Positions 7,801-53,428 of a stretch of DNA of 64,000 nucleotides are shown piece by piece. Positions within the stretch are counted from its first letter, which is position 1, and each line of letters starts with the position of its first letter. Where the stretch lies: positions 1-64,000 of the forward strand of contig NW_022651104.1 of the NCBI RefSeq assembly GCF_004027225.2, given 5' to 3'. A program made the translations under genes and the position numbers. This stretch comes from Strigops habroptila (taxonomy: Eukaryota; Chordata; Aves; Psittaciformes; Psittacidae). The notes under the pieces are model-generated. The model was given only the letters and a program-made list of their open reading frames with translations, made no database searches and had not been told where the DNA came from.

Positions 7801-8775
7801 CTGGATGGTGCGGGTTGCCTAAATGTTGACACACGTGCGTATCTTGTAGTTCTGGATGTCCGTAGCATGGACTTTGTGCAGTCTTGTGCAGTCCCGTGGA
7901 AGGCAGTATCTCAGCAGAACACGGAGCTAGAAAGAAAATCTAGCAAGTCCGACCACATCATCTGGGAAATATGGGTCACAAAGGTAAGCAGCTGCCAGCC
8001 TGTTTGCGCACCGTTGTGGGATAATTACTGTATATGATTTAGAAATTAAACTTATATTTAAAAATGTAGCATTGCTCACACATAAAGGAAGAATGGACTT
8101 TCAGGGTAAGATGCAGCTACACGTGGTTTGCCAGGAATTCACTCCACAGCGGTTCCCGTGGCAACATTGCTTGACGGAGGATGGAGCAGAGTGGAGATTC
8201 TGCGGCCAAACTCTGTCCCAACACCAGCAGAGGTGGGAACTAAATGGTACTTAAAACTGATAAGCTGCTTACTTGCTGCCCTGAGCCAACGGCCTGTCAT
8301 CTTTTGACAAAATGCTGTCCTTTGTGCGAACTTTGCTTCATTATAATGCATTTTAACACGAAAACACACCTCCACCTCCAATGCTACCCGCCTCCAAAGT
8401 GAGACCACCCCTCTTTGAGCATGCGGTTGTATACTTTATTATTTGCACGTGCTTTTGCAAACAGTGCATTTATCTCCGGCAATCCACAAGAACCTGTATC
8501 TGTTTCTTTAATAAACTGCACTGTTTAAGCAGCTAATCGTAAATCTCTCATTGAACGCGACCAGCTCCTCAGTGTGGCAGAGCTAGTTCGTGAGCACAAT
8601 TAGACTGAAGGTGCAGTGCACTATCAGTGCATGCAGAATCGTGATTATTCAATATATTGAATGCCTAGCCGCACTCAGCCCCTCTAATATCTGAGGACCA
8701 GCTAGAAAGAAAGGGGGTTTATTTTCTGCCAAATTATTTTCCCTTTCACGCAACAGCCTTCCTGCTCAACTACAT
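4849..8775. other. Gene-free left flank with CR1 and LTR remnants
   Basis: I find no convincing exon here. Around 5,053-5,095 there is a short CR1 3'-end-like stretch (tcataaaatagttgaggttg). Near 6,150-6,200 a minus-strand AATAAAAG followed by ERV-like sequence may be an LTR scrap. A plus-strand AATAAA occurs near 8,510 in another possible LTR-like stretch. From 6,361 on, the sequence is repeated in direct orientation at 48,287 onward, so this part belongs to the amplified material although it lies outside copy 1 as defined against copy 2. Confidence 0.6.
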
Positions 8776-10340
8776 CTGCAGCCTCAGACCCACCTCCCTG
8801 TCCTTCCTCTGCTGCAGCCCCGGGGACAAGAGGCCATGGCTTGGGGCAGCTGTAAGACCCCCTGCACTCAGGTGCTCGGAAGCTGCAGGATGGGGATGGA
8901 GGGGATCGAGCGGGGTCACCCGTCTGCTTCGCATTTACAGTTCTGCTTCTGGAAACACTGCCAGCTTCTCGCTTCATTGCTCCAGTGCTTGCGCGTGCAA
9001 GAGGAGCAGGAGAATCGCAATCTCTTGTCCCTTATCTCCGGCCTTAGCAGCTCCAAGCCTCGCTCCTTATTCCTCCCGTCCTTTCTACACCCCTCTCATT
9101 CCGGTCACTGGGCTGCAGCACGCAGCGGGCTCCAAAAACCTTCTGATGTGGGACCCGCTGCATCACACGCTGTCTCATCCCATCGGGAGGCACTTTTCCT
9201 ACATGGGCAGCACGCACTGCCAAGAGCCAGCGGGACTGCAAGCTCACCAGCTGGGAAGTGCTGCAAGGAAAGGGGTCGCTCCGCAGGCTTCTCTGCTACC
9301 GACAGGAGGGAAAAGCTGAAGCAGGCAGAGGCGAGCCCTGGGGGGAAAGCGACATGGTTTATTAGCCCGAGAAGGTGTCCACAGTGAGTGCAGGCTGCAG
9401 CACGATGTCCTCAGCGCAGCTCCCTCAGGCCTGGAGCTGGCAGCGGGGCACTACTCCTCCACTTGTGGGTTCATGCAAGAGCAGCTGCAAGCCTTGCACA
9501 GACCCTTCAGCACCCTTCTGAAGCAGGATGGTTGCTGCTCTTGGACCTCTTCATGTCTGCCATAATGCAATTCTGTTTGCGGGAAGACGTAGAAGGCTCT
9601 GGGGAAAGAATAGCTGTAGTTGTAGTAATAGGGGGACCTCTCGTAAATGTCTGCTTCCATCCACGTATAAGGTCTACAACTGGGGTGATTGCAGTGAGGG
9701 ATTTGAGCCCCTGTAGGAGGAGGGGAGGCCGGGGCACTGCCGGACTTGAACAGACGCTGCCTCCAGCTTAGCCTGGATGCCTCTTGCCTCCAGGGTGTCG
9801 CTGCCCTTTCATGAGCTGCTGCATACGCTGCCTGTGCATCCTCGTAGAATCGCGGGGTAGCAAAGGTTGTGCTGGCCTCTCCTTGGTGCTTTTTAGGTGC
9901 TTTCCTCACTCCGCGCCCGAATACAGCCTGCAGAGCTCTGTTGAGAACTGAGAGCCTGGGTGCGGTCCGTCTCTGCGCGTGTGGTGGGAGCTGACTCCAG
10001 GAATGTCCTGATCCCTGCCTCCGGGCCCGTGATGGTGTCTCTCTCTGGGCCTCTGCTGGTATTGGCACAGGAGACTTGGTGGACTGAACTTCTGCAGGTC
10101 TCCTTGCTGCCGTCGACACATCCACTCCTTCAGCCACGTCCTGCTCTTCCAGAGACTGCTGGATAGTTTCCTGCATCACAGCAAAACCCCCGCGAACGAC
10201 ATCCCTCATGAACTGGCTGGCTAGTTCCTGTGGAACAAACTCAGAGGCTACGGGGCTGAGCAGAGCAAGTGCCTCCTTCTGGGCCTCTTTGTCTTCCTCC
10301 TGCTTGCTAAAGGCACAGGAAGCTCGTGCCGATGCTGCCT
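6361..10340 (+). repeat. Direct repeat of the palindrome spacer (48,287-52,270)
   Basis: The sequence starting at ggttccttcatcaac recurs at 48,287 and runs in parallel for about 4 kb (offset about 41.93 kb). It covers the AT-rich flank, the start of the amplicon and most of the last exon of gene A. The spacer version then jumps to other parts of the unit. Differences are scattered substitutions and small indels, denser between about 7,080 and 7,560. Confidence 0.85.
9358..9363 (-). terminator. Poly(A) signal of gene A, copy 1
   Basis: AATAAA on the minus strand, 88 bases beyond the gene A stop codon at 9,451. It is conserved at 30,583-30,588 (copy 2) and 51,289-51,294 (truncated copy). Its position supports transcription of gene A from the minus strand. 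Confidence 0.65.
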
Positions 10341-13300
10341 TCTCTTTTGCTGCTGGGACGAGAGGGGCTGTGCTTGGCTCTCCCTGAGGCTCTGCGGCCA
10401 CAGGAGACTCCGTGTCCTCAACTGCTGCAGGTCTCATTGCTGCCACTGACACATTCACATGGCTTTGAGCCATGTCCTCCTGTTCCAGAGGCTGCTCATC
10501 AAAGCCAGGGGAAGCTGATGCCAGTGCCTCCTCCTGCTCTTGTTGCACAGCAGTGAGAGGTGCCTGGTGCTGCTCTTCCTCAGCAGCTCCAGCCAGGCTC
10601 GGAGCTGCCGGCTCGGTGTCCGTGGGACCAGCCGGGGCAGGAGACACGCTCTGCAGGTCTCCAGCTGCCTCTGCTGCCGCATCTGTGCCCATGCTGCTGA
10701 GGATGCTGGATTCCTCCTGGATATGCAATCGGGGGTCCTGGAAGAGCTCTGGCACCAAGGGGCATATCCAGATTTTGTCTGTGGTGATGACTTCCGCATG
10801 GGACAGGACATTGTCGATGTCCTCAACGCACTGTTTCTCCCCCTCTGCAGGCAAGGCTGCTGACTCCTCCTGTGAACACACAGCAGAACATCAGGAGCTA
10901 ACAGCTCTCCCCAGCCGTGTCTCTCTCGGGGGTGGAGGGAGTTTTGTGGGTGCCGTGCCATGGGCTGCCTTCTCCCCTGTGGCCCTGTGACCAGCGCCAG
11001 GGCTGGGTGGTGCATTGGCCCGTCACTTGGTCCTGGGGCTGCTGCTGGTGGCTGCTCACTGGGGAGGTCCCTCCCGGGCTGCTCTCCTTCAGTGCCTTTG
11101 CTCCAGAGGAGGGGTGCAGGACGGGAGAGCAAGAGCACAGGCAGGGGAGGGAGGGGATGTCAGCGGGATGGCACAGGGAGCACCAGCAATGCCCCTGCCA
11201 CACACAGCCTGGGGTCTGGGGCTGCCTCCAGCACCTTGGCATCGCTGGTGCCGGCCACACGCTGTCACTCACCTGGTGCTGAGAGTCCTGAGCCAAGGGA
11301 GAAGCTGCTGCTTCTCCTTCATCGTCTGCTCCAGGGGCAGGGGGCGGTGTTCCAGCATCTGCCCCAGGGATCTCAGTCAAAGAAGGTGTCACATCCCCCT
11401 CGTGTGCTGCCGGGGAGACACCGGCTCTTATGGCCTCTTCTTGATGGTCTCCAGCCACAGGAGACACCATGTCTTCTCCACCCTCGGCTGCTGCTGGCGA
11501 GCCACCGGCTCTTATGGCCTCTTCTTGATGGTCTCCAGCCACAGGAGACACCATTTCTTCTCCACCCTCGGCTGCTGCTGGGACGAGAGGGGCTGTGCTT
11601 GGCTCTCCCTGAGGCTCTGCGGCCACAGGAGACTCCGTGTCCTCAACTGCTGCAGGTCTCATTGCTGCCATTGGCACACGCACATGGCTCACAGCAGACT
11701 CGGTGTCCTTAAGTGCTGCATGCAGCGATGCTGCCATCGCCGCATGCCAGCTTTGGCTTGTGTCTTGCCCTTCCGCCTGCTTCTTGCTGGTTCTCAGGAT
11801 CCCAGCCGAGGGCAGGAGCAGCAGCTTCCTCTTTTTGGATGTGGCTGTGACCTGCAGAGCTGCGTCCATTACTCTGATGCTCTGCAGGGCAGGTGCATGT
11901 CTCTGCCCCTGTGGTGCTGCCTCCTTCTTGCCAAGGTTATTAGAAGCTGGTGCCGGTGCCACAGGAAGGAGACGTGCCTGGTGCTCCTCTTCCTCAGGAG
12001 CTCTGGCCACACAGCTCTTCTTCGGCTGCTCCGAAGACCTGGTCTTGCTGGGCTGGGGGGGCAGATGCCGTGCAACAGGCGTGTAGTGCACACCGAGGAA
12101 CTTGGTGTTGATGCAGGAATTCATGTGTGCCGCCGGCATTGCTGGCAGGTGCTCTGCTGCTTGCCCTGTGTTCCTGCTCTGGGGAGCACCGGTGCCCCCA
12201 TGGGTGCGAGAATGAAGTGTGGGCTGAGCGGCAGGGGCCTTGCTGCTGCCAGCCACCGGGACAGTGTCTGTCCTTGTCCTCATCCCTGCAGCCCTGCTGT
12301 GTGCCAGGTCCTGCCGTGGCGCTGGCTGCTGGAGGGCTCCCCGGCTCCCAGTGCTGTTCTTGCGCAGGACTGCGCTCACGCTGCCTGAACTCTTCATTGC
12401 AGAGGCAGAGGCTGTGGGGCTGAGTGGGGCAGGTGTCTGGCAGGTCTCTGGCCATGCAACTCTGCTGCCATGACTTGGTTTGCGGCGCAGCTGGGCTGCA
12501 GTTTTGAGAAGCTGCTGTTGGCTGCTGCTCGTGCTGCCGATGGCCAAGCTGCTGACAGTGTCAGAAGCTGCAGAGGCTGCTGGTGTCACAGGCGGCAGCC
12601 TGCAGGAGGTGACGACTGGTGTCTTTGAGCGATGAGGCGGCCGGTGTGCCATTGCCACCAATGGTGGCAGACGAAGCGTCTGCTCATGCATTGGCCCACT
12701 GCTGCGGGGCAGCATCCCTCGGTGCCCCGCGCTGCTCATCTGTAAGAGAAGCCGAGGAGAGAAGCTGTGTGATGGTGTCCCTTGCGCCCGCGTCCCAGCG
12801 GGCTGAGCTCTTGCACTTGGGCTCCCCTGCCAGCCCCAGGGCAGGGCTCAGCCCCGCAGGCGGCTGCCGCCTGCTCCCAGAGCCGGCTGGGGACAGGGCT
12901 GGCCACCCGCAGCCCTCGGCCGCTGCCCAGAGCACCCCCGGCACGCCGGGGAGCTGGCTGGGTACGGCGTGGGGGCCTCAGCTTGCTCCCTCCCGCACCT
13001 CCCGCCTGCCCGTCAGCAGCTCCCGGGGTCGGGACGACGTTCGGCCCCGTCTCCCTCAGGCTCCCTACCTGTGCCTGCTGGTTGGCGACAGGCTGAAACC
13101 TCTCTGGGTTGGGCACCCGTGCCTGCGTGATCCCATGGTGGGACGAGGCCTGGCTCGGGCTGCCCTGCGGCTGTTCCTCGGGCTGCCTGCGGGCCACCTG
13201 CGGGCAGGAGGAGGAGGAGGAAGAGGTGTGTGATGGAAGCGGCTGCCTTGGCACAGCGGCCCCCGCAGTGCCGGCAAGCCCGGCCCCGGCACCAAGGCAG

Positions 13301-13428
13301 CTCCGTGCGGCCCCGTCCCACCAGCGGCCTCCCCCTCCTGCCCCGGCTCTCACCTGGCACATCCTCTGTGCGCTTGGCCTGCCCTCAGCGGGCTGGGAAC
13401 GGGCGTTCGCCTCTTTGCCCACGGGCAT
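9451..13428 (-). CDS. Gene A copy 1: uncharacterised four-exon repeat-rich protein
   Basis: I do not recognise this protein. Exons, all in phase 0, are 13,428-13,354 (25 codons), 13,197-13,069 (43), 12,739-11,273 (489) and 10,869-9,451 (472 plus TAG), giving about 1,029 residues. Donors are CAG/gtgaga, CAG/gtaggg and CAG/gtgagt; acceptors are tgcccgcag, cttctcttacag and tgtgttcacag. Introns are 156, 329 and 403 bp. The start is chosen because it lies about 105 bases downstream of a TATA-like box and has A at -3; the frame stays open upstream, so a longer N-terminus is possible. The product is rich in Ala, Glu, Pro and Ser. It has two 28-residue repeats (about 459-514) and a module of about 30 residues present in both exons 3 and 4. 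The C-terminus is Tyr-rich, then Cys-rich. No membrane segment, signal peptide or known domain is visible. Exon boundaries are inferred from sequence only. Confidence 0.6.
11423..11590 (-). repeat. 84-bp coding tandem repeat in gene A exon 3, copy 1
   Basis: Two adjacent 84-bp units (11,423-11,506 and 11,507-11,590) encode two near-identical 28-residue repeats containing MVSPVAGDHQEEAIRAG. Being a multiple of three, the repeat keeps the frame. The same pair is present in copy 2 at 32,648-32,815. Confidence 0.85.
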
Positions 13429-13531: not shown

Positions 13532-13540
13532 CTTATGTAC
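13532..13540 (-). promoter_or_regulatory. TATA-like box upstream of gene A, copy 1
   Basis: On the minus strand the sequence gtacataagg lies about 105 bases upstream of the proposed ATG at 13,428. A CCATTGTG element of SOX-binding type lies about 40 bases further upstream. This would place transcription start near 13,505. Prediction from motifs only. Confidence 0.4.
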
Positions 13541-14661: not shown

Positions 14662-15120
14662 TCAGGGAAGCTGAGAGGGAGCTGAGCTGCTGGCTCCAGG
14701 ATGCGGTGTTCCAGCATCAGCCCCAGGGATCTCAGTCAAAGAAGGTGTCACATCCCCCTCGTGTGCTGCCGGGGAGACACCGGTTGTTACGGACTCTTCC
14801 TGATGGGAAGACACGGGAGACACCATGTCTTCTCCACCCTCTCCTGCTTCTGCAATGAGAGGTGCTGTGCTTGGCTCTCCCTGAGTTTCTGCGGCCTCAG
14901 GAGATGCAGCGTCCTCAGCTACTGCAGCTGAAATTTCTGCCATGGCCACATCCAAGCTCTTGGTCTTCTCCTTGTGTTCCGCAGCAGCGAGAGGTGCCCG
15001 GTGCTGCTCTTCCTCAGCAGCTCCAGCCAGGCTCGGAGCTGCAGGCTTGGTGTCCGTGGGACCGAGTTCTTGTTCTTGTGCTTGTTCACAGGAACCAGCC
15101 TGTGAACGGGGTTGGGAAGA
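14662..15120 (-). pseudogene. Gene-A-type exon fragment, copy 1
   Basis: The minus-strand frame is closely related to gene A exons 3 and 4. It contains GAAEEEQHRAPL, AETQGEPSTAPL, EDMVSPVSSHQEE and SPAAHEGDVTPSL. It has no matching 5' exon, is joined upstream (15,120-15,321) to unrelated sequence, and reads into CR1-adjacent sequence downstream. A fuller version of this exon lies at 52,769-53,428. Probably a duplicated remnant of a gene A relative. Confidence 0.7.
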
Positions 15121-15889: not shown

Positions 15890-16719
15890 TCATGCCCAGG
15901 ATAGAAACGGGGGAGCTACGCAGAAGGACCGGATCACTGCTCGGGGCTTTGGGTAGGCAAATGTGCCAGTGCTGATGAACAAGGTGACCGCGGCCAGGTG
16001 AGGGAGGCACGTGGAAAAGCCTTTGTGGTGTCCCTGCTCAGAGGGGATCCTCAGCACGGCCCTGAAGATCTGCACATAGGACCCCACAATGAAAACAAAA
16101 CACCCATGTGCTAAACAGAAACTAACCACAGGAAGCCCAACTTCCCTGAGGTAGGAACGTGAGCAGGAGAGCTTGAGGAGCTGGGGGATTTCACAGAAGA
16201 ACTGCTCCACAGCATTGCCTCGGCAGAGGGGTAGGGAAAATGTATTGGCTGTGTGCAGCAGAGCAGTGAGAAACCCACTGCCCCAGGCAGCTGCTGCCAT
16301 GTGGGCACAAGCTCTGCTGCCCAGGAGGGTCCCGTAGTGCAGGGGCTTGCAGATGGCCACAGAGCGGTCGTAGGACGTGATGGTGAGAAGATATAACTGC
16401 TGAAAACAAGAAGAGAAAGAAAAAACTGTGCAGCACAACCTGTGTAGGAGATGGCCCTGGTGTTCCAGAGGGAATTGGCCATGGATTTGGGGACAGTGGT
16501 GGAGATGCAGCCCAGGTCCAGGAGGGAGAGGTTGAGCAGGAAGAAGTACATGGGGGTGTGGAGGTGCTGGTCGCAGGCTGTGCTGGTGATGATGAGGCCG
16601 TTGCCCAGGAGCGCAGCCAGGGAGATGCCCAGGAAGAGCCAGAAGTGCCAGAGCTGCAGCTCCCGCGTGTCTGCGAATGGCAGGAGGAGGAAGTGGGTGA
16701 TGGAGCTGCCGTTGGACAT
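15890..16719 (-). pseudogene. Olfactory receptor pseudogene, family-14-like, copy 1
   Basis: Translation from ATG at 16,719 gives a typical avian class II olfactory receptor start: N-glycosylation site NGSS, TM1 with LLGNGLII, HTPMYFFLLNLSLLD (IC1/TM2) and the conserved TM3-proximal Cys. Near 16,390-16,405 a net frame change breaks the gene in TM3. The second frame resumes with ITSYDRSVAICKPLHYGTLL, through TM4, ECL2 cysteines, TM5 and the KGFSTCLPHL motif before TM6. The DRY-type motif has become DRS. The frame ends just after TM6 and TM7 with its NPxIY motif is absent. A functional receptor would have about 310 residues. The same lesions occur in all three copies, so inactivation preceded amplification. 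Confidence 0.92.
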
Positions 16720-18262
16720 CTGCTGCCTCTGGACGTGAGGTCTGTTCAAACAAGGAAAGGACAGGGAGAAATTACAACATATGCATTTCCTTGTTCCTGA
16801 CTGAAATGCATTTCCTTTCTCTGGTTTGTGCTGGCTGAGTGTGCTGTGAGGAGCAGGACCTCTGCCCATGTGCTGCCAGGGAGTCAGCTTTGCTCTGAAG
16901 CAGTGCTTTCTCCAGCTCTGATGTTCAAAAGGGATGTCAGATGAAACTCACCTTAACTGTAAAGTTCAGTACTTGCACTCATGACTCGGGTGAGTCTGGG
17001 CTGCACAAGAGAGGCTCAGCATGGCCTTAGAATCATTTTGACTGTGTTCTTTATTGACTAGCATAACACTGCTGAGGCTTCTTTCTAGGGGTTTAAATCC
17101 TTCTTTGTATGACTGAAAACCTGAAGAGTATTGAAACAGGCAAAAGGTCTCAGCTCTTTGTAGCTTAGTGCAGAGCCAGGAGAGCTGCAGTGTCCATCAG
17201 TCCTTTCCCATTTGCCCTGTGCTTACACTTGCACTGCCTGTAGGATGCCTTCACACACAAATTGATCTTAAGAACCCCCACAAACATCTGTCCTGTGCTG
17301 AGAGCAGGGGAGCATGGTTTCAAAGGGCCGATCATGGAGCTCTCATGGGGAGAAGCAAAGGACTGTGCGCTGCCTCAATGTCTTTCAGAAGGACCCTCTG
17401 CCAGTGATGTGGAGCTCTGAGCAGCCCTGACCCACGGAGCACCCTCTCAAGTGCACAAGAACACTTCTCTGTCCCTGCCAGGGGTTGTTCCTTCCCGCCC
17501 AGCTTCTCCCCCAGCGCCGTGGGGAGCTCCCGGGCAGGCTGAGTGCTGACCCTGGCAGGCGGCAGAGTCCCTGCCCCGGCACACAGCCCCTGGGGTGCAG
17601 GGACCCTGCTCGCAAGGACAGCGCTGGGCACCCCTGGCTGCACACCCACATTCACACCCTGCAGCCAGCCCCAGGACAAGGGACCTGTCTTCTCCTGGCC
17701 CTCGCATGGTGCAGAGGGAAGCCCTGCTCTGCAGCACATCCTCCTCCTTATCTACACAGAGAAACTAAGAGAGTCCTCCTGGCAGATCCCATGGACTGTC
17801 CGAGGCAGCAGCTTGAGGAGATCCCTCCAGGAACTGCAGCTGCATTGCCCTGCACCCAGAGCCTTACCACGCACAGGGCTGGGAAGGTTTCTCCTGCAGG
17901 CAGCTCTCAGCATCCTCCACTGCCAAGTGCCTTTAAGCTCTCTGAGGCTCGCAGGTCTGCCCTCGGTGCCTGCAGGCAGTGCCCCAGCCCTGCTCCTGGG
18001 CAGAGCTGTCTCTCTGCAGCGCTGCCCGCTTGCCAGCATCTCTCTGCGTCCCAGGAGCCCGGCCCAGCTCAGCAGCAGAGGCCCAGCCCAAGGTGGCACT
18101 GCCTCTGCCCCTCTGGGCTCCCTCCAGGGCTCCCTGGGGCTCCAGGGGAACAGCATGGGAAAGTGCCTGAAGCAAGCACTGATGTTCCCTCCCTCAGCTG
18201 GGAGACACACTGCCTTCCTGCAGTGTCATTTCTCTGCTGAGAGACAGAGTTATGGCTAAAAA
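16720..18262. other. Olfactory receptor upstream region; no gene seen
   Basis: Positions 16,720-17,300 hold receptor 5' flank with a possible acceptor just before the start codon. Positions 17,330-18,260 are GC-rich and open in several frames on both strands (up to 251 codons), but no frame shows a domain, splice pattern or better conservation between copies than the others. I do not call a gene. Confidence 0.5.
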
Positions 18263-22375: not shown

Positions 22376-22423
22376 TCCGGCGCATGCGGCAGAGGGGGGG
22401 CGTAGCGGGACCCCTGGGCGGGG

Positions 22424-22919
22424 TCCCGGTTTGGGGCGCGGGGGTCCCACTTTGGGGTGCTGGGGTCCCACTTTGGGGTGCTGAGGTCCCATTTTGATAT
22501 GCTGGGGTCCCGGTTTGGGGTGCTGGGGTCCCAATTTGGGGTGCAGGGGTCCCGGTTTGGGTGCTGGGGTCCAGGTTTGAGGTGCAGGTGCCCCATTTTG
22601 GGTGCTGGGGTCTCAGTTTGGGGTACCTGGGTCCCATTTTGGGGTGCAGGGGCCCCGGTTTGGGGCACAGGAGTCCCGTTTTAGGGTGCAGGGGTCCCAT
22701 TTTGGGGTGCTGGGGTCCCACTTTGGAGTGCTGGGGTCCCATTTTGATATGCTGGGGTCCCGGTTTGGGGTGCTCCCCCACTTTGGGGTGCTGGGATCCC
22801 GGTTTGGGGCGCAGGGGTCGAGCTTTGAGGTGCAGGTACCCCATTTTGGGTGCTGGGGTCTCAGTTTGGGGCACAGGGGTCCTATTTTGGGGTGCAGGGG
22901 CCCCGGTTTGGGGCGCAGG
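22424..22919. repeat. Minisatellite of ~20-bp units, copy 1 part 1
   Basis: Tandem units of the type ggggtcccattttggggtgct, degenerate, with T-G-G-G runs on the plus strand. Long proline-rich open frames on the other strand are by-products of the repeat. The array is split by a solo LTR and continues at 23,592-23,745. Confidence 0.93.
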
Positions 22920-27725: not shown

Positions 27726-27738
27726 CATTGCTGTTCCA

Positions 27739-28238
27739 CCTGCTTCTTGCTGGTTCTCAGGATCCCAGCCAAGGGCAGGAGCAGCAGCTTCCTCTTTTTG
27801 GATGTGGCTGTGACCTGCAGAGCTGCGTCCATTACTCTGATGCTCTGCAGGGCAGGTGCATGTCTCTGCCCCTGTGGTGCTGCCTCCTTCTTGCCAAGGT
27901 TATTGGAAGCTGGTGCCGGTGCCACGGGAAGGAGACGTGCCTGGTGCTCCTCTTCCTCAGGAGCTCTGGCCACACAGCTCTTCTTCGGCTGCTCCGAAGG
28001 CCTGGTCTTGCTGGGCTGGGGGGGCAGATGCCGTGCAACAGGCGTGTAGTGCACACCGAGGAACTTGGTGTTGATGCAGGAATTCATGCGTGCCGCCGGC
28101 ATTGCTGGCAGGTGCTCTGCTGCTTGCCCTGTGTTCCTGCTCTGGGGAGCACCGGTGCCCCCATGGGTGTGAGAATGACGTGTGGGCTGAGCGGCAGGGG
28201 CCTTGCTGCTGCCAGCCACCGGGACAGTGTCTGTTCTT
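27739..28238 (-). pseudogene. Gene A exon 3 fragment, 3' part
   Basis: Matches 11,776-12,275 of copy 1 (middle of exon 3) nearly base for base, but lacks both exon ends. A CR1 interrupts it at 28,239 and the rest follows at 29,734. With no promoter, start or last exon it cannot encode gene A. Confidence 0.88.
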
Positions 28239-29733
28239 AGAATCATAGAATCATAGAATAGTAAGGGTTGGAAGGGACCTTAAGATCATCTAGTTCCAAC
28301 CCCCCTGCCATGGGCAGGGACACCTTGCACTAAACCATGTGGTCCAAGGCTCTGTCCAACCTGGCGTTGAACACCGCCAGGGATGGAGCATCCACAACCT
28401 CCCTGGGCAACCCATTCCAGCGCCTCACCACCCTCACTGTAAAGAACTTCCTCCTTATATCTAATCTAAACTTCCCCTGTTTAAGTTTGAACCCATTACC
28501 CCTCGTCCTACCACTACAGTCCCTTAGGAAGAGTCCCTCCCCAGCATCCTTATAGACCCCCTTCAGATACTGGAAGGCTGCTATGAGGTCTCCACGCAGC
28601 CTTCTCTTCTCCAGGCTGAACAGCCCCAACTCTCTCAGCCTGTCTTCGTACAGGAGGTGCTCCAGCCCTCTTATCATCCTCGTGGCCCTCCTCTGGACTC
28701 GCTCCAACAGCTCCATGTCCTTTTTATGTTGAGGACACCAGAGCTGTACGCAGTACTCCAAGTGAGGTCTCACAAGAGCAGAGTAGAGGGGCAGGATCAC
28801 CTCCTTTGACCTGCTGGTCACGCTTCTTTTGATGCAGCCCAGGATACGGTTGGCTTTCTGGGCTGCGAGCACACACTGAAGCTGGCTCATGTTGAGCTTC
28901 TCATCAACCAACGCCCCCAAGTCCTTCTCCTCAGCCTGCTCTGAATCTCTTCTCCGCCCAACCTGTAGCAGTGCCTGGGATTGCCCCGACCCAGGTGTAG
29001 GACCTTACACTTGGCTTGGTTAAACTTCATAAGGTTGGCATCGGCCCACCTCACAAGCCTGTCAAGGTCCCTCTGGATGGCATCCCTTCCCTCCAGCGTA
29101 TCAACTGAACCACACAGCTTGGTGTTGTCGGCAAACTTGCTGAGGGCGCACTCAATCCCACTGTCCATGTCGCCAACAAAGATGCTGGACAGGACCGGTC
29201 CCAACACCGATCCCTGAGGGACACCACTCGTTACAGGTTTCCAACAGGACATCGAGCCGTTGACCACAACTCTTTACGTGTGGCCATCCAGCCAGTTCTT
29301 TATCCACCGAGTGGTCCATCTATCAAATTGATGTCTCTCCAATTTAGAGACAAGGATGTCATGCAGGACAGTGTCGAACGCTTTGCACAAGTCCAGGTAG
29401 ATGACGTCAACTGCTCTGCCCCTGTCCATCAGTTCTGTGGCTCCATCTTAGAAGGCCACCAAATTGGTCAGGCAGGATTTCCCCTTAGTGAAGCCATGTT
29501 GGCTGTCACCAACCACCTCGTTGTTTTTCATGTGCCTTAGCATATTTTCCAGGAGAATCTGCTCCAAGATTTTGCCAGGCACAGAGGTGAGGCTGACTGG
29601 TCTGTAGTTCCCCGGGTCTTCCACCTTCCCCTTCTTGAAAATGGGGGTTACGTTACCCTTCTTCCAGTCATCGGGAACTTCACCTGACTGCCACGATTTT
29701 TCAAATATGATGGACAGTGGTTTAGCAACTTCA
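28239..29733 (-). mobile_element. CR1 LINE, 5'-truncated, inserted in gene A fragment
   Basis: On the minus strand it encodes parts of the CR1 reverse transcriptase: [52 protein letters not shown], then [12 protein letters not shown] (the YADD-like box position) and the C-terminal NGLPREVV region. The low-coordinate end carries the tail agaatcatagaatcatagaa. The pentamer TTCTT flanks it at 28,234-28,238 and 29,734-29,738, perhaps a target-site duplication. At about 1.5 kb it is the longest CR1 in the window. Frames are interrupted, so it is inactive. Confidence 0.93.
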
Positions 29734-29937
29734 TTCTTGTCCTCATCCCTGCAGCCCTGCTGTGTGCCAGGTGCTGCCGTGGCGCTGGCTGCCGGTGGGC
29801 TCCCCGGCTCCCAGTGCTGTTCTTGCACAGGACTGTGCTCACGCTGCCTGAGCTCTTCATTGCAGAGGCAGAGGCTGTGGGGCTGAGTGGGGCAGGTGTC
29901 CAGCAGGTCTCTGGCTATGCAACTCTGCTGCCATGAC
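29734..29937 (-). pseudogene. Gene A exon 3 fragment, 5' part
   Basis: Continuation of the exon 3 fragment beyond the CR1, matching copy 1 up to about 12,474. It breaks at ccatgac into 60 bases of unshared sequence before amplicon copy 2 starts at 30,001. Confidence 0.85.
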
Positions 29938-30675
29938 AAGGTGGTTTCCTGTCCCCAAACACAAACCAAGAGCTGTGTCCGCCTTCCTGCCCAAATACAC
30001 CTGCAGCCTCAGACCCACCTCCCTGTCCTTCCTCTGCTGCAGCCCCGGGGACACGAGGCCATGGCTTGGGGCAGCTGTAAGACCCCCTGCACTCAGGTGC
30101 TCGGAAGCTGCAGGATGGGGATGGAGGGGATCGAGCGGGGTCACCCGTCTGCTTCCCATTTACAGTTCTGCTTCTGGAAACACTGCCAGCTTCTCACTGC
30201 ATTGCTCCAGTGCTTGCGCGTGCAAGAGGAGCAGGAGAATTGCAATCTCTTGTCCCTTATCTCCGGCCTTAGCAACTCCAAGCCTCGCTCCTTATTCCTC
30301 CCGTCCTTTCTACACCCCTCTCATTCCGGTCACTGGGCTGCAGCACGCAGCGGGCTCCAAAAACCAGCTGACGTGGGAGCCGCTGCATCACACGCTGTCT
30401 CATCCCATCGGGAGGCACTTTTCCTACATGGGCAGCACGCACTGCCAAGAGCCAGCGGGACTGCAAGCTCACCAGCTGGGAAGTGCTGCAAGGAAAGGGG
30501 TCGCTCCGCAGGCTTCTCTGCTACCGACAGGAGGGAAAAGCTGAAGCAGGCAGAGGCGAGCCCTGGGGGGAAAGCGACATGGTTTATTAGCCCGAGAAGG
30601 TGTCCACAGTGAGTGCAGGCTGCAGCACGATGTCCTCAGCGCAGCTCCCTCAGGCCTGGAGCTGGCAGCGGGGCA

Positions 30676-33600
30676 CTACTCCTCCACTTGTGGGTTCATG
30701 CAAGAGCAGCTGCAAGCCTTGCACAGACCCTTCAGCACCCTTCTGAAGCAGGATGGTTGCTGCTCTTGGACCTCTTCATGTCTGCCATAATGCAATTCTG
30801 TTTGCGGGAAGACGTAGAAGGCTCTGGGGAAAGAATAGCTGTAGTTGTAGTAATAGGGGGACCTCTCGTAAATGTCTGCTTCCATCCACGTATAAGGTCT
30901 ACAACTGGGGTGATTGCAGTGAGGGATTTGAGCCCCTGTAGGAGGAGGGGAGGCCGGGGCACTGCCGGACTTGAACAGACGCTGCCTCCAGCTTAGCCTG
31001 GATGCCTCTTGCCTCCAGGGTGTCGCTGCCCTTTCATGAGCTGCTGCATACGCTGCCTGTGCATCCTCGTAGAATCGCGGGGTAGCAAAGGTTGTGCTGG
31101 CCTCTCCTTGGTGCTTTTTAGGTGCTTTCCTCACTCCGCGCCCGAATACAGCCTGCAGAGCTCTGTTGAGAACTGAGAGCCTGGGTGCGGTCCGTCTCTG
31201 CGCGTGTGGTGGGAGCTGACTCCAGGAATGTCCTGATCCCTGCCTCCGGGCCCGTGATGGTGTCTCTCTCTGGGCCTCTGCTGGTGTTGGCACAGGAGAC
31301 TCGGTGGACTGAACTTCTGCAGGTCTCCTTGCTGCCGTCGACACATCTACTCCTTCAGCCACGTCCTGCTCTTCCAGAGACTGCTGGATAGTTTCCTGCA
31401 TCACAGCAAAACCCCCGCGAATGACATCCCTCACGAACTGGCTGGCTAGTTCCTGTGGAACAAACTCAGAGGCTATGGGGCTGAGCAGAGCAAGTGCCTC
31501 CTTCTGGGCCTCTTTGTCTTCCTCCTGCTTGCTAAAGGCACAGGAAGCTCGTGCCGATGCTGCCTTCTCTTTTGCTGCTGGGACGAGAGGGGCTGTGCTT
31601 GGCTCTCCCTGAGGCTCTGCGGCCACAGGAGACTCTGTGTCCTCAACTGCTGCAGGTCTCATTGCTGCCACTGACACATTCACATGGCTTTGAGCCATGT
31701 CCTCCTGTTCCAGAGGCTGCTCATCAAAGCCAGGGGAAGCTGATGCCAGTGCCTCCTCCTGCTCTTGTTGCACAGCAGTGAGAGGTGCCTGGTGCTGCTC
31801 TTCCTCAGCAGCTCCAGCCAGGCTCGGAGCTGCCGGCTCGGTGTCCGTGGGACCAGCCGGGGCAGGAGACACGCTCTGCAGGTCTCCAGCTGCCTCTGCT
31901 GCCGCATCTGTGCCCATGCTGCTGAGGATGCTGGATTCCTCCTGGATATGCAATCGGGGGTCCTGGAAGAGCTCTGGCACCAAGGGGCATATCCAGATTT
32001 TGTCTGTGGTGATGACTTCCGCATGGGACAGGACATTGTCGATGTCCTCAACGCACTGTTTCTCCCCCTCTGCAGGCAAGGCTGCTGACTCCTCCTGTGA
32101 ACACACAGCAGAACATCAGGAGCTAACAGCTCTCCCCAGCCGTGTCTCTCTCGGGGGTGGAGGGAGTTTTGTGGGTGCCGTGCCATGGGCTGCCTTCTCC
32201 CCTGTGGCCCTGTGACCAGCGCCAGGGCTGGGTGGTGCATTGGCCCGTCACTTGGTCCTGGGGCTGCTGCTGGTGGCTGCTCACTGGGGAGGTCCCTCCC
32301 GGGCTGCTCTCCTTCAGTGCCTTTGCTCCAGAGGAGGGGTGCAGGACGGGAGAGCAAGAGCACAGGCAGGGGAGGGAGGGGATGTCAGCGGGATGGCACA
32401 GGGAGCACCAGCAATGCCCCTGCCACGCACAGCCTGGGGTCTGGGGCTGCCTCCAGCACCTTGGCATCGCTGGTGCCGGCCACACGCTGTCACTCACCTG
32501 GTGCTGAGAGTCCTGAGCCAAGGGAGAAGCTGCTGCTTCTCCTTCATCGTCTGCTCCAGGGGCAGGGGGCGGTGTTCCAGCATCTGCCCCAGGGATCTCA
32601 GTCAAAGAAGGTGTCACATCCCCCTCGTGTGCTGCCGGGGAGACACCGGCTCTTATGGCCTCTTCTTGATGGTCTCCAGCCACAGGAGACACCATGTCTT
32701 CTCCACCCTCGGCTGCTGCTGGCGAGCCACCGGCTCTTATGGCCTCTTCTTGATGGTCTCCAGCCACAGGAGACACCATTTCTTCTCCACCCTCGGCTGC
32801 TGCTGGGACGAGAGGGGCTGTGCTTGGCTCTCCCTGAGGCTCTGCGGCTACAGGAGACTCCGTGTCCTCAACTGCTGCAGGTCTCATTGCTGCCATTGGC
32901 ACACGCACATGGCTCACAGCAGACTCGGTGTCCTTAAGTGCTGCATGCAGCGATGCTGCCATCGCCGCATGCCAGCTTTGGCTTGTGTCTTGCCCTTCCG
33001 CCTGCTTCTTGCTGGTTCTCAGGATCCCAGCCGAGGGCAGGAGCAGCAGCTTCCTCTTTTTGGATGTGGCTGTGACCTGCAGAGCTGCGTCCATTACTCT
33101 GATGCTCTGCAGGGCAGGTGCATGTCTCTGCCCCTGTGGTGCTGCCTCCTTCTTGCCAAGGTTATTAGAAGCTGGTGCCGGTGCCACAGGAAGGAGACGT
33201 GCCTGGTGCTCCTCTTCCTCAGGAGCTCTGGCCACACAGCTCTTCTTCGGCTGCTCCGAAGACCTGGTCTTGCTGGGCTGGGGGGGCAGATGCCGTGCAA
33301 CAGGCGTGTAGTGCACACCGAGGAACTTGGTGTTGATGCAGGAATTCATGCGTGCCGCCGGCATTGCTGGCAGGTGCTCTGCTGCTTGCCCTGTGTTCCT
33401 GCTCTGGGGAGCACCGGTGCCCCCATGGGTGCGAGAATGAAGTGTGGGCTGAGCGGCAGGGGCCTTGCTGCTGCCAGCCACCGGGACAGTGTCTGTCCTT
33501 GTCCTCATCCCTGCAGCCCTGCTGTGTGCCAGGTCCTGCCGTGGCGCTGGCTGCTGGAGGGCTCCCCGGCTCCCAGTGCTGTTCTTGCGCAGGACTGCGC

Positions 33601-34653
33601 TCACGCTGCCTGAACTCTTCATTGCAGAGGCAGAGGCTGTGGGGCTGAGTGGGGCAGGTGTCTGGCAGGTCTCTGGCCATGCAACTCTGCTGCCATGACT
33701 TGGTTTGCAGCGCAGCTGGGCTGCAGTTTTGAGAAGCTGCTGTTGGCTGCTGCTCGTGCTGCCGATGGCCAAGCTGCTGACAGTGTCAGAAGCTGCAGAG
33801 GTTGCTGGTGTCACAGGCGGCAGCCTGCAGGAGGTGACGACTGGTGTCTTTGAGCGATGAGGCGGCCGGTGTGCCATTGCCACCAATGGTGGCAGACGAA
33901 GCGTCTGCTCATGCATTGGCCCACTGCTGCGGGGCAGCATCCCTCGGTGCCCCGCGCTGCTCATCTGTAAGAGAAGCCGAGGAGAGAAGCTGTGTGATGG
34001 TGTCCCTTGCGCCCGCGTCCCAGCGGGCTGAGCTCTTGCACTTGGGCTCCCCTGCCAGCCCCAGGGCAGGGCTCAGCCCCGCAGGCGGCTGCCGCCTGCT
34101 CCCAGAGCCGGCTGGGGACAGGGCTGGCCACCCGCAGCCCTCGGCCGCTGCCCAGAGCACCCCCGGCACGCCGGGGAGCTGGCTGGGTACGGCGTGGGGG
34201 CCTCAGCTTGCTCCCTCCCGCACCTCCCGCCTGCCCGTCAGCAGCTCCCGGGGTTGGGACGACGTTCGGCCCCGTCTCCCTCAGGCTCCCTACCTGTGCC
34301 TGCTGGTTGGCGACAGGCTGAAACCTCTCTGGGTTGGGCACCCGTGCCTGCGTGATCCCATGGTGGGACGAGGCCTGGCTCGGGCTGCCCTGCGGCTGTT
34401 CCTCGGGCTGCCTGCGGGCCACCTGCGGGCAGGAGGAGGAGGAGGAAGAGGTGTGTGATGGAAGTGGCTGCCTTGGCACAGCGGCCCCCGCAGTGCCGGC
34501 AAGCCCGGCCCCGGCACCAAGGCAGCTCCGTGCGGCCCCGTCCCACCAGCGGCCTCCCCCTCCTGCCCCGGCTCTCACCTGGCACATCCTCTGTGCGCTT
34601 GGCCTGCCCTCAGCGGGCTGGGAACGGGCGTTCGCCTCTTTGCCCACGGGCAT
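30676..34653 (-). CDS. Gene A copy 2: uncharacterised four-exon repeat-rich protein
   Basis: Same structure as copy 1: exons 34,653-34,579, 34,422-34,294, 33,964-32,498 and 32,094-30,676, with all splice sites, the TATA-like box (34,757-34,765) and the poly(A) signal (30,583-30,588) preserved. All four exons are open and in phase 0, giving about 1,029 residues. Differences from copy 1 are few and mostly change the amino acid, for example in exon 4 Met to Val and Val to Ile in the RDV/IRGG segment, Lys to Glu in QSTESPV and Ile to Thr in PVPTPAE. Either both copies are young or they are homogenised by gene conversion. Function unknown. Confidence 0.6.
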
Positions 34654-35881: not shown

Positions 35882-36340
35882 TCAGGGAAGCTGAGAGGGA
35901 GCTGAGCTGCTGGCTCCAGGATGCGGTGTTCCAGCATCAGCCCCAGGGATCTCAGTCAAAGAAGGTGTCACATCCCCCTCGTGTGCTGCCGGGGAGACAC
36001 CGGTTGTTACGGACTCTTCCTGATGGGAAGACACGGGAGACACCATGTCTTCTCCACCCTCTCCTGCTTCTGCAATGAGAGGTGCTGTGCTTGGCTCTCC
36101 CTGAGTTTCTGCGGCCTCAGGAGATGCAGCGTCCTCAGCTACTGCAGCTGAAATTTCTGCCATGGCCACATCCAAGCTCTTGGTCTTCTCCTTGTGTTCC
36201 GCAGCAGCGAGAGGTGCCCGGTGCTGCTCTTCCTCAGCAGCTCCAGCCAGGCTCGGAGCTGCCGGCTTGGTGTCCGTGGGACCGAGTTCTTGTTCTTGTG
36301 CTTGTTCACAGGAACCAGCCTGTGAACGGGGTTGGGAAGA
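35882..36340 (-). pseudogene. Gene-A-type exon fragment, copy 2
   Basis: Counterpart of 14,662-15,120, with the same truncation and the same unrelated sequence upstream. It differs by single bases, such as gccggcttgg for gcaggcttgg. Confidence 0.7.
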
Positions 36341-37109: not shown

Positions 37110-37939
37110 TCATGCCCAGGATAGAAACGGGGGAGCTACGCAGAAGGACCGGATCACTGCTCGGGGCTTTGGGTAGGCAAACGTGCCAGTGCTGATGAAC
37201 AAGGTGACCGCGGCCAGGTGAGGGAGGCACGTGGAAAAGCCTTTGTGGTGTCCCTGCTCAGAGGGGATCCTCAGCACGGCCCTGAAGATCTGCACATAGG
37301 ACCCCACAATGAAAACAAAACACCCATGTGCTAAACAGAAACTAACCACAGGAAGCCCAACTTCCCTGAGGTAGGAACGTGAGCAGGAGAGCTTGAGGAG
37401 CTGGGGGATTTCACAGAAGAACTGCTCCACAGCATTGCCTCGGCAGAGGGGTAGGGAAAATGTATTGGCTGTGTGCAGCAGAGCAGTGAGAAACCCACTG
37501 CCCCAGGCAGCTGCTGCCATGTGGGCACAAGCTCTGCTGCCCAGGAGGGTCCCGTAGTGCAGGGGCTTGCAGATGGCCACAGAGCGGTCGTAGGACGTGA
37601 TGGTGAGAAGATATAACTGCTGAAAACAAGAAGAGAAAGAAAAAACTGTGCAGCACAACCTGTGTAGGAGATGGCCCTGGTGTTCCAGAGGGAATTGGCC
37701 ATGGATTTGGGGACAGTGGTGGAGATGCAGCCCAGGTCCAGGAGGGAGAGGTTGAGCAGGAAGAAGTACATGGGGGTGTGGAGGTGCTGGTCGCAGGCTG
37801 TGCTGGTGATGATGAGGCCGTTGCCCAGGAGCGCAGCCAGGGAGATGCCCAGGAAGAGCCAGAAGTGCCAGAGCTGCAGCTCCCGCGTGTCTGCGAATGG
37901 CAGGAGGAGGAAGTGGGTGATGGAGCTGCCGTTAGACAT
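37110..37939 (-). pseudogene. Olfactory receptor pseudogene, copy 2
   Basis: Counterpart of 15,890-16,719: ATG at 37,939, frame break near 37,610-37,625, DRS in place of DRY, and loss of TM7. Only a few substitutions separate it from copies 1 and 3. Confidence 0.92.
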
Positions 37940-40900: not shown

Positions 40901-41749
40901 TGCCAAGTCTGACACAATCTCTTTTTGTAGGTGGTGGAGTGGGGCCTCGCCACCAAATCCTGTTGAATCGTGCACGCACCCCAGCCCTGACTCTGCACAG
41001 GGCAGCAAGGGGTGCTGCTCTTCACTACAGCCCAGCTGGGCTGAACTGAGTCGATGCTCACACAGAAACCTGCCTTTGTCCCAGACGAGGCTCTACAGAC
41101 CACAGGATTCTCCAGAAGTACCAGCCCATCTGGTTTTCTTGTCCCATCCTTGCACAGGGGGAGACCCTTGTTGCTGTTTCTCCTAGAACACACGGGAGTA
41201 GAAAATGAAATATCATTTTTAATAACAAAACTGCATTCCAATTACCATGGAAAATATGGAACAAGATGCTAAAGCCCAACAGGTTTTACCAGGAAGAACA
41301 ACAATTAACCAAAAATTCCCTCCTTTCCCAGTTTCCTCAGGAACTGACAAGTGCACGTGACACAGCAAGTGATCTGTGTGACTACTGCACGTGGAGGTGA
41401 GCAATTCCTTTTGGTGTTAGATCTGTATAGTCAGATTTATCTCCAAACGAACTCAACTATGTACCAAGCAAATAGGCAGGTAGTTTTCAGCTGGATCTGC
41501 AGTGCCCTGCTAGGACCTGCACATTTGGGGACTCCAGAAATAGCTGGGACTTCTTCTCCCAAGAAATCCACCCCTGACAGGAAGGAAACACACACTCTGC
41601 TCTGTGACACCAGGGGTCACTCCTTCAGCTGAGGTCTAATCCATTTTCAGAAATCACACAAACCCACTGTGCATTCAGCACACCAGGAGCTTTTATCAAA
41701 ACCTGGTCTCCCCAGAACACTTCAGTTGTAGAGGCACTAAATATTTATG
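37940..41749. other. Copy 2 intergenic stretch; no gene seen
   Basis: Counterpart of 16,720-20,532, with the CR1 tail relic at about 39,493-39,555. Open frames are present on both strands without support. Confidence 0.5.
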
Positions 41750-45588: not shown

Positions 45589-45591
45589 CTG

Positions 45592-47666: not shown

Positions 47667-48212
47667 GAGGAGCCAGCAGACTTGCCCGCAGAGGAGGAGA
47701 AGGATGAGGATGCGAAGGAGGAGTCGGAATATGTTAGTGACAAAGAGCTGTCCCTAGGAGAAGCCGGCACCTTGTACAACATCTGAGTCAACCCCTTAGT
47801 GACAGAGCTCTTCCAAGACCCCCGAGCGCATATCCAGGAGGGATCCAGCATCCTCAGCAGCATGGGCACGGATGCGGCAGCAGAGGCAGCCGGAGACCTG
47901 CAGAGCGTGTCTCCTGCCCCGGCTGGTCCCACGGACACCGGGCTGGCAGCTCCTACTCTGGCTGGAGCTGCTGAGGAAGAGCAGCACCGGGCACCTCTCG
48001 CTGCTGCGGAACACAAGGAGAAGACCAAGAGCTTGGATGTGGCCATGGCAGAAATTTCAGCTGCAGTAGCTGAGGACGCTGCATCTCCTGAGGCCGCAGA
48101 AACTCAGGGAGAGCCAAGCGCAGCACCTCTCATTGCAGAAGCAGGAGAGGGTGGAGAAGACATGGTGTCTCCTGTGTCTTCCCATCAGGAAGAGTCCGTA
48201 ACAACCGGTGTC
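47667..48212 (+). pseudogene. Gene-A-type exon downstream of PIM exons, left arm
   Basis: Starts EEPADLPAEEEKDEDAKEES after a good acceptor and aligns with gene A exon 4 (ELFQDPRAHIQE, SSILSSMGTDAAAEAAGDLQ). An in-frame TGA at 47,784-47,786 stops it after 39 codons, though the frame stays otherwise open to 48,266. The palindrome arm ends at 48,212, cutting the exon. Positions 48,213-48,281 are inverted sequence otherwise found near 15,700-15,765. Confidence 0.8.
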
Positions 48213-51381: not shown

Positions 51382-52270
51382 CTACTCCTCCACTTGTGGG
51401 TTCATGCAAGAGCAGCTGCAAGCCTTGCACAGACCCTTCAGCACCCTTCTGAAGCAGGATGGTTGCTGCTCTTGGACCTCTTCATGTCTGCCATAATGCA
51501 ATTCTGTTTGCGGGAAGACGTAGAAGGCTCTGGGGAAAGAATAGCTGTAGTTGTAGTAATAGGGGGACCTCTCGTAAATGTCTGCTTCCATCCACGTATA
51601 AGGTCTACAACTGGGGTGATTGCAGTGAGGGATTTGAGCCCCTGTAGGAGGAGGGGAGGCCGGGGCACTGCCGGACTTGAACAGACGCTGCCTCCAGCTT
51701 AGCCTGGATGCCTCTTGCCTCCAGGGTGTCGCTGCCCTTTCATGAGCTGCTGCATACGCTGCCTGTGCATCCTCGTAGAATCGCGGGGTAGCAAAGGTTG
51801 TGCTGGCCTCTCCTTGGTGCTTTTTAGGTGCTTTCCTCACTCCGCGCCCGAATACAGCCTGCAGAGCTCTGTTGAGAACTGAGAGCCTGGGTGCGGTCCG
51901 TCTCTGCGCGTGTGGTGGGAGCTGACTCCAGGAATGTCCTGATCCCTGCCTCCGGGCCCGTGATGGTGTCTCTCTCTGGGCCTCTGCTGGTGTTGGCACA
52001 GGAGACTCGGTGGACTGAACTTCTGCAGGTCTCCTTGCTGCCGTCGACACATCCACTCCTTCAGCCACGTCCTGCTCTTCCAGAGACTGCTGGATAGTTT
52101 CCTGCACCACAGCAAAACCCCCGCGAACGACATCCCTCACGAACTGGCTGGCTAGTTCCTGTGGAACAAACTCAGAGGCTATGGGGCTGAGCAGAGCAAG
52201 TGCCTCCTTCTGGGCCTCTTTGTCTTCCTCCTGCTTGCTAAAGGCACAGGAAGCTCGTGCCGGTGCCGCC
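51382..52270 (-). pseudogene. Gene A last exon, 5'-truncated (spacer copy)
   Basis: The last ~296 codons of gene A exon 4, with the normal stop codon (51,382) and poly(A) signal (51,289-51,294). At about 52,270 the exon is fused to the polypyrimidine acceptor region of intron 1 and then to CR1 sequence. An accidental open frame of 340 codons runs through the junction. Exons 1-3 and the promoter are missing. Confidence 0.85.
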
Positions 52271-52322
52271 TTCACTCTCAGGAGGAGGAGGAGGAGGAGG
52301 TGTGTGATGGAGGTGGCTGCCT

Positions 52323-52768: not shown

Positions 52769-53428
52769 TCAGGGAAGCTGAGAGGGAGCTGAGCTGCTGG
52801 CTCCAGGATGCGGTGTTCCAGCATCAGCCCCAGGGATCTCAGTCAAAGAAGGTGTCACATCCCCCTCGTGTGCTGCCGGGGAGACACCGGTTGTTACGGA
52901 CTCTTCCTGATGGGAAGACACGGGAGACACCATGTCTTCTCCACCCTCTCCTGCTTCTGCAATGAGAGGTGCTGTGCTTGGCTCTCCCTGAGTTTCTGCG
53001 GCCTCAGGAGATGCAGCGTCCTCAGCTACTGCAGCTGAAATTTCTGCCATGGCCACATCCAAGCTCTTGGTCTTCTCCTTGTGTTCCGCAGCAGCGAGAG
53101 GTGCCCGGTGCTGCTCTTCCTCAGCAGCTCCAGCCAGAGTAGGAGCTGCCAGCCCGGTGTCCGTGGGACCAGCCGGGGCAGGAGACACGCTCTGCAGGTC
53201 TCCGGCTGCCTCTGCTGCCGCATCCGTGCCCATGCTGCTGAGGATGCTGGATCCCTCCTGGATATGCGCTCGGGGGTCCTGGAAGAGCTCTGTCACTAAG
53301 GGGTTGACTCAGATGTTGTACAAGGTGCCGGCTTCTCCTAGGGACAGCTCTTTGTCACTAACATATTCCGACTCCTCCTTCGCATCCTCATCCTTCTCCT
53401 CCTCTGCGGGCAAGTCTGCTGGCTCCTC
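52769..53428 (-). pseudogene. Gene-A-type exon, palindrome right arm, full length
   Basis: Exon begins at 53,428 after acceptor tgtgttcacag and runs to the frame end at 52,769. It carries the same TGA (53,309-53,311) as the left arm. Beyond the palindrome boundary (52,883) it continues as SPAAHEGDVTPSL, like the fragments at 14,662 and 35,882. It is the most complete member of this second exon type. Confidence 0.8.

Follow-up and report, generated by a model that had tools for sequence, protein, structure and literature searches.

A four-exon gene in two open copies in Strigops habroptila, a member of an unnamed repeat-built protein family of modern birds

The window analysed here, a 64,000-nucleotide stretch of Strigops habroptila (kakapo) DNA, carries two open copies of a four-exon gene that, on sequence comparison, is a member of an unnamed, repeat-built, fast-changing protein family of many modern birds. 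We lean towards a joint reading in which a gene of this repeat family lies in a direct repeat, its copies exchanged sequence by gene conversion, one of its introns has turned coding, and its product, more tentatively, would be a germline membrane scaffold. Within a short stretch the window brings together a duplication, likely gene conversion and what seems to be an intron converted to coding sequence, and the family proteins of the 25 named bird species carry unrelated automatic names in public databases.

Gene model in the window

The coding strand, which the initial annotation did not give, is the minus strand. Its model of four phase-0 exons with canonical splice sites and about 1,029 codons held: each exon length is a multiple of 3, all borders are GT-AG, and the spliced product has 1,029 residues. 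The TATA-like box and poly(A) signal that it pointed to were located at 13539-13532 and 9363-9358, and its second copy (30,676-34,653), lying at +21,225 bases, is intact, with all borders and the frame kept and open throughout.

13532..13539, minus strand: TATA-like TACATAAG, consensus match only
13354..13428, minus strand: copy 1 exon 1, 75 nt, 25 codons, with the start motif
13069..13197, minus strand: copy 1 exon 2, 129 nt, 43 codons
11273..12739, minus strand: copy 1 exon 3, 1467 nt, 489 codons (Markov simulation, P0001 alignment)
9451..10869, minus strand: copy 1 exon 4, 1419 nt, 472 codons plus stop, with the predicted amphipathic helix and C-terminal basic Cys-rich helix
9358..9363, minus strand: poly(A) signal AATAAA, ~87 nt past the copy 1 stop
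34579..34653, minus strand: copy 2 exon 1 (splice borders and open frame, as for the next three)
34294..34422, minus strand: copy 2 exon 2
32498..33964, minus strand: copy 2 exon 3
30676..32094, minus strand: copy 2 exon 4

Because the region is GC-rich and its opposite strand carries long chance frames (for example 465 aa at 10991-12388), the gene call was weighed against first-order Markov simulations with base transitions taken from the locus itself; exon 3 was open in 0 of 4,000 and exon 4 likewise in 0 of 4,000.

Relatives in other birds

The wider family that had been suggested from the window was borne out in other birds by three protein searches, each scoring ~8,000 candidates, which yielded at least 42 relatives (P0001-P0042). 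The second half of the window protein retrieved six direct relatives from parrots and an ibis (E 5.4e-224 to 1.3e-49), and 36 more were reached via an ibis relative and a family profile. The 40 relatives with organism names span 25 species, all of which we take to be Neoaves, a restriction that describes only what was found here, since each search scored ~8,000 candidates; the description of the gene as lineage-specific does not stand as worded and applies at most to Neoaves as found in these searches. The database contains predicted proteins only, two of the 42 (P0017, P0019) being named LOW QUALITY, so that broken orthologues would stay hidden.

The closest database relative, P0001, is the uncharacterised kakapo protein LOC115603218, which starts as the window copies do, runs through the same three splice junctions and ends in a similar tail, with identities over aligned residues of 96% in exon 1, 95% in exon 2, 91% in exon 3 and 86% in the first part of exon 4. 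It lacks a 28-residue repeat of the window copies and has a 48-residue helix unit and two 8-residue stretches absent from them. The label "undescribed" fits the family, for which nothing was found at title and abstract level in the literature, and does not fit the gene, whose spliced product LOC115603218 matches across three junctions. The remaining relatives (P0002-P0042) are named uncharacterized, treacle-like, calphotin-like, nucleolar dao-5-like, KIAA0754-like and others. A repeat unit around NIWVNPLVPELFQDP, the putative amphipathic helix, a FRRALRALRRAF tail and the start motif are each shared by part of them, and their repeat-unit numbers differ from that of the window protein.

In fixed-pattern scoring the start motif was matched at 17 or more of 26 residues in 11 of the 42 relatives (17/26 in the window copies), and the tail motif at 14 or more of 21 in 20 of the 42. 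The window-copy tail scored 10/21 against the common pattern, below the member threshold of 14 and with tail-less proteins reaching 8; its C-terminal end equals kakapo P0002 at 19 of 27 residues. A loose exon-2 pattern occurs in 11 relatives. Eight of them have the exon 1-2 junction of the present model, P0009 and P0027 keep intron 1 as coding sequence, and in P0022 the sequence leading into exon 2 starts within that intron. By similarity, by the start motif with the exon 1-2 junction and by the Cys-rich tail helix, the window gene belongs to this unnamed Neoaves repeat family.

A candidate former intron in exon 4

9597..9791, minus strand: exon 4 stretch resembling a former terminal intron, now coding, 195 bases, ends placed by eye

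At this place in exon 4, 12 of the 42 relatives have PG and then an IAAL-like sequence, and in these 12 a terminal intron seems to be spliced out where the window copies read on. P0001, whose frame is open, reads through this presumed intron as well. TGG stands at the donor place of the presumed intron instead of GT, and AG is kept at the acceptor place. The stretch is mostly overlapped by residues 926-992, which are only 60% identical to P0001, and it is the least conserved stretch. From these comparisons we infer that ~65 residues before the tail derive from a former intron that turned coding in this sub-branch.

Repeat architecture and divergence of the copies

The gene was said to have been amplified with a palindrome, and a palindrome does adjoin it (arms seen at 37126-48212 and 52883-64000); the two full copies, however, form a direct repeat with a unit of ~21.2 kb, and neither lies inside the arms within the window. 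Olfactory receptor pieces, with a receptor split over two frames, occur within the same repeated unit. Other pieces of the family were found in six stretches, with the two blocks of one broken exon 3 region not counted separately, rather than in the four neighbouring fragments first reported.

51382..52276, minus strand: third copy, open exon 4 fragment only (similarity and translation; match stretch 51385-52293; a few bases further upstream are open but non-homologous)
27728..29950, minus strand: broken exon 3 piece in two blocks, 27728-28246 open and 29723-29950 with a stop
14698..15063, minus strand: family fragment (similarity)
35918..36283, minus strand: family fragment, copy of 14698-15063 (similarity)
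47739..48209, plus strand: family fragment with internal stop (similarity and translation)
52805..53356, minus strand: family fragment with internal stop (similarity and translation)

Stops are present in three of the five translated pieces (29723-29950, 47739-48149 and 52946-53356), and no Rfam family matched at gathering thresholds.

Copies 1 and 2 differ at 11 of 3,090 coding sites, and, as the initial annotation had observed, most of these differences (8/11) alter residues. Of the two readings that it drew from them, weak constraint or positive selection, the latter finds no support, since the neutral expectation for the nonsynonymous share is 0.712 and eight or more would occur with P = 0.61; the copies may be under weak constraint. 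Purifying selection is likewise not visible in the copy pair, which looks neutral, or against a diverged fragment, itself broken, for which dN = 0.17 and dS = 0.17.

The introns and upstream sequence differ at 5 of 1,460 sites, a count from which a downstream stretch with 51/751 position-by-position mismatches was excluded because homology to copy 2 begins only at 8756. The flank just downstream (8756-9154) differs at 13 of 399 sites between the units and is more diverged than the gene. Along the two 21 kb units divergence varies from place to place, staying between 0 and 2.8% per kb as far as ~24.7 kb and rising to nearly 6% at the end, and the gene sits in a low-divergence stretch where introns are as low as exons.

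9155..10060, minus strand: 906-base block with zero differences among three copies, covering exon 4 end, 3' UTR and flank

Purifying selection was considered for the 591 coding bases on which all three copies agree and set aside, since the identity continues through the 3' UTR and flank, for which gene conversion is the simpler explanation. The block's three-copy identity suggests it as a gene conversion candidate, and the near-identity of the copies was probably kept partly by this process.

Predicted structure and possible function

Two structure models were both of low confidence (mean pLDDT 51.5 and 48.5). The first, from AlphaFold2, points to disorder by its low confidence and places exon 4 helices at residues 187-202, 211-247, 306-317, 343-354 and 449-464, the last being the basic Cys-rich C-terminal helix. 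Most of the protein is therefore probably disordered, apart from this C-terminal helix and one that is amphipathic. Among solved structures, exon 4 matched three SAKe entries, which are designed proteins (best E 1.5e-5, no single stretch passing alone), and the family profile matched none up to E 1.

The initial annotation saw no recognisable domain, which is true of the window protein: its sole Pfam match, DUF5543 (E 0.0098), reached 16.6 bits against a cut-off of 25, and FSIP2 (PF15783), a sperm fibrous-sheath protein, was absent from its matches up to E 1. The statement does not extend to the family, since among the 32 of the 42 relatives scanned two ibis proteins, P0005 and P0007, exceed the curated FSIP2 cut-off (E 3.4e-9 and 1.3e-10); matches below the cut-off came from a cormorant (E 1.4e-4) and a snowy owl (E 0.003). 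The ibis segment resembles profile positions 628-750 and lies in a predicted long helix, and the match could partly reflect coiled-coil composition. Human FSIP2 has 6,907 residues and neognath sperm are without fibrous-sheath ribs and columns (PMC11276731), and an FSIP2-like role need therefore not mean a classical sheath.

A likeness to A-kinase anchoring proteins was sought with an RII-binding helix pattern, selected after the sequences had been inspected, in 25 proteins that covered only 23 of the relatives. The stricter form fitted 11 of the 25, and the looser form did better than shuffled sequences (5 or fewer of 300) in only seven; these matches are not independent, since most of them are repeats of a single helix. 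No match to the pattern, which fits other members of the family, came from the two window copies or from P0001, and AKAP membership was rejected for the window copies.

As a best guess for function, and a tentative one, we propose a membrane-attached germline scaffold. The window protein would be a flexible Ala/Pro/Glu-rich scaffold whose basic, cysteine-rich C-terminal helix might anchor it at a membrane, palmitoylation being one possible means, and whose amphipathic helix might serve as the docking site for a partner; this could be an R-subunit-like docking domain, in the manner of sperm sheath proteins. Such a scaffold would most likely act in male germ cells, a germline role drawn solely from the FSIP2 match of the relatives. 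It is a bolder and rather improbable idea that a Neoaves-specific family of sperm scaffolds, built in part from an FSIP2-like segment together with a docking helix present in repeats, assumed part of the sheath architecture when neognaths lost its ribs and columns, and that turnover of repeats, gene conversion and the conversion of introns to coding sequence now drive its evolution. If expressed in the germline, the family would amount to a bird reproduction gene that is widespread and evolves fast, and it would help to show which components make up the simplified sperm sheath of neognaths.

The chief competitor to a working gene, possible and still less than probable, is that the family is real elsewhere and that the window copies are recently dead or dying, open only by recent duplication and homogenisation. 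The neutral look of their differences is consistent with this, as are the stops in neighbouring pieces, the poor conservation of the former intron now coding and the unmatched RII helix pattern. Exon divergence from the diverged fragment is also not below that of the intron (52/329 against 17/177; Fisher P 0.058), but this is a weak test because the fragment is broken and its first part resembles a different repeat type. Against decay, all splice sites and an open frame of >3 kb are kept in both full copies, and P0001 is likewise open.

That the gene serves the olfactory region or some other somatic tissue, proposed since the repeated unit also contains an olfactory receptor, is unlikely: linkage alone says little, that receptor is split over two frames, and no receptor family rose above cut-off in the window protein or in any of the 32 scanned relatives. 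That the frames are open merely by chance in GC-rich DNA and no gene exists, as the long frames on the opposite strand might suggest, is exceedingly improbable given the simulations for each long exon and is already refuted by the existence of relatives, six bird proteins matching the window protein directly.

Gene Model and Bird Relatives

Translation of copy 1, which is coded on the minus strand (13428-9451), bore out the proposed four exons with GT-AG borders, all of lengths divisible by three and giving a product of 1,029 residues plus stop, and copy 2 (30,676-34,653) has identical borders and frame at an offset of exactly 21,225 bases. The TATA-like sequence (13539-13532) and poly(A) signal (9363-9358) of the initial annotation were also found. 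Since the GC-rich DNA of the window is rich in long open frames, both long exons were simulated using the base transitions of the locus itself; exon 3 and exon 4 were each open by chance in 0 of 4,000 simulations.

A wider family had been surmised, and protein searching confirmed it: the C-terminal half of the product matches six bird proteins (three from kakapo and one each from blue-and-yellow macaw, golden parakeet and ibis) with E values of 5.4e-224 to 1.3e-49. A second search with an ibis protein and a third with the family alignment raised the total to at least 42 relatives, each search having scored ~8,000 candidates, and fowl, ducks and ratites may still have members. Two of the relatives are without an organism name; the other 40 represent 25 species, all Neoaves, from parrots, falcons, eagles and hawks, owls, shearwater, cormorant, ibis, egret, flamingo, razorbill, potoo, hummingbird, pigeon and a manakin. 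P0042, from the manakin, has the weakest E value of the third search (1.3e-36) and is the most different in appearance. Their source names range from "uncharacterized" to "treacle-like" and "calphotin-like". We conclude that the window gene is genuine, though uncharacterised, and belongs to an unnamed family of bird genes.

The closest relative among the matches listed, P0001 (kakapo LOC115603218), agrees with the window protein at 96, 95 and 91% of aligned residues in exons 1, 2 and 3, and its sequence, compared as protein only, is continuous over the three junctions, as the same splicing would give. Eleven relatives fit a loose exon-2 pattern, and eight of them join exon 1 to exon 2 as in the window model; the P0009 and P0027 models read through the homologue of intron 1, and P0022 enters from within it. 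Because intron 1 is open in the window too, these sequence comparisons support the exon 1-2 border, yet not beyond doubt. Upstream of the start, a leader or promoter seems conserved, since the translation of 13429-13600 matches, by eye, the extended 5' ends of two other models, P0019 (flamingo) and P0024 (falcon). Where some eagle models have an upstream Met (MAGLRQRTPKMPM), the window has Thr.

Fourteen of the 42 relatives (12 species) lie on contigs of 23.6-26.8 Mb, a hint of one conserved chromosome; the other 28 are outside that size range. The P0019 model, named LOW QUALITY, is a family member fused to an AIF-like oxidoreductase, a part that may mark a neighbouring gene.

Divergence Between Copies

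The most serious alternative to a working gene is that the window copies are already dying, and the main result against a working gene is that no purifying selection on them was seen in any test run within the window. Between copies 1 and 2, dN is 0.0034 and dS 0.0040. Differences had been said to be mostly residue-changing, and 8 of the 11 coding differences are, but this is no excess over the neutral expectation of 0.712 of changes, under which 8 or more have a probability of 0.61. Over the introns and 572 upstream bases together, 5 of 1,460 sites differ, and in the flank 8756-9154 13 of 399. Against a diverged, broken family fragment, dN = dS = 0.17, with more differences in exon (52/329) than in intron (17/177; Fisher P 0.058); by eye, most of the exon changes lie in the first ~40 codons, possibly a different type of repeat.

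Divergence between the copies is patchy, and so looks like the product of gene conversion. Six of the 11 coding differences are clustered in 191 bases (2290-2480), where copy 1 is the odd one, since copy 2 has the kakapo residue at all five replacement sites and the third copy, an open exon 4 piece, at four of them; outside the cluster, the kakapo residue is in copy 2 at 273 and in copy 1 at 123 and 154. A 906-base block (9155-10060), UTR and flank included, has zero differences among the three copies, and the remaining 21 kb unit diverges by 0 to 2.8% per kb, climbing to about 6% at its end.

Presumed Terminal Intron and Protein Anatomy

Family proteins consist of repeated units whose motif resembles NIWVNPLVPELFQDP, a stretch rich in Ala, Pro and Glu, an amphipathic helix and a basic C-terminal tail with cysteines close to the end. 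Directly ahead of the tail, PG runs straight into an IAAL-like sequence in 12 of 42 relatives, as would be expected after removal of an intron. By eye, this place is read through in the falcon P0024 and macaw P0003 models, and likewise in the window copies, the third fragment and P0001. The donor place in the window is CCC TGG AGG, without GT (TGG at 9792-9790), and the acceptor place has a pyrimidine-rich stretch with the final AG kept at 9598-9597. Residues 926-992, overlapping most of the presumed former-intron stretch, show 60% identity to P0001, versus 83% after and 86-96% upstream. This presumed terminal intron appears to have become coding in the sub-branch of the window copies. Their tail shares 19 of 27 residues with that of kakapo P0002 and scores only 10 of 21 on the commoner tail pattern.

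Most of exon 4 was modelled with low confidence, the mean pLDDT being 51.5 and 63 of the 472 residues reaching at least 70; helices were predicted at 187-202, 211-247, 306-317, 343-354 and 449-464.

Possible Role

The most likely role of the window gene, tentatively, is that of a germline, membrane-attached scaffold. Among 32 relatives scanned, two ibis proteins exceeded the Pfam cut-off for the sperm fibrous-sheath protein FSIP2 (E 3.4e-9 and 1.3e-10), and cormorant (1.4e-4) and snowy owl (0.003) proteins fell below it, with overlapping profile positions in all four; the Pfam scan listed no FSIP2 match up to E 1 in the window protein. Because the matching ibis segment is predicted as a single long helix (268-319), the match is possibly a coiled-coil resemblance. 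PMC11276731 describes binding of FSIP2 to AKAP4 in the sperm fibrous sheath, a sheath whose ribs and columns are absent from neognath birds.

The stricter form of an RII-binding pattern, for the docking helix of A-kinase anchoring proteins (AKAPs), is present in 11 of 25 tested proteins (shuffle means at most 0.10 per protein) and absent, among these 25, from both window copies and P0001; the looser form is clearly above shuffles (5 or fewer of 300) in seven of the 25, for a pattern picked after the sequences were seen, whose repeats inside one protein are not independent. A perspective (PMC12203939) describes AKAP anchoring by an amphipathic helix, broken by a charged residue in the hydrophobic face; the pattern itself does not come from that source.

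Genome Setting

Features of the repeated units and palindrome
37126-48212 and 52883-64000: palindrome arms, beyond copy 2, centre near 50.56 kb
15890-16947 (-), 37110-38173 (-) and 62953-63795 (+): olfactory receptor, broken into two frames (Pfam, ORF list)
22378-22782 and 43592-43996: tandem 21-base repeat, in each unit; inverted near 57.2 kb
28330-29004 (-): open frame flanked by both blocks of a broken exon 3 fragment

The gene had been described as amplified with a palindrome; it is amplified, in a direct repeat of ~21.2 kb, but neither full copy lies in the palindrome arms inside the window. The arm pieces are mostly 98-100% complementary (one 91%), and the ~4.7 kb spacer houses the third gene fragment; copy 2 is predicted to have a mirror image beyond the window end. 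Both pieces of the first receptor copy match Pfam 7tm_4, and the ORF list shows both again in the second copy and a single one in the third; a broken receptor was therefore amplified with the repeated unit. The tandem repeat reads as 7-residue PAPQTG-like units inside a long open frame, and its first copy had no Pfam match. The 28330-29004 frame, likewise without a Pfam match, resembles the end of a CR1-type reverse transcriptase.
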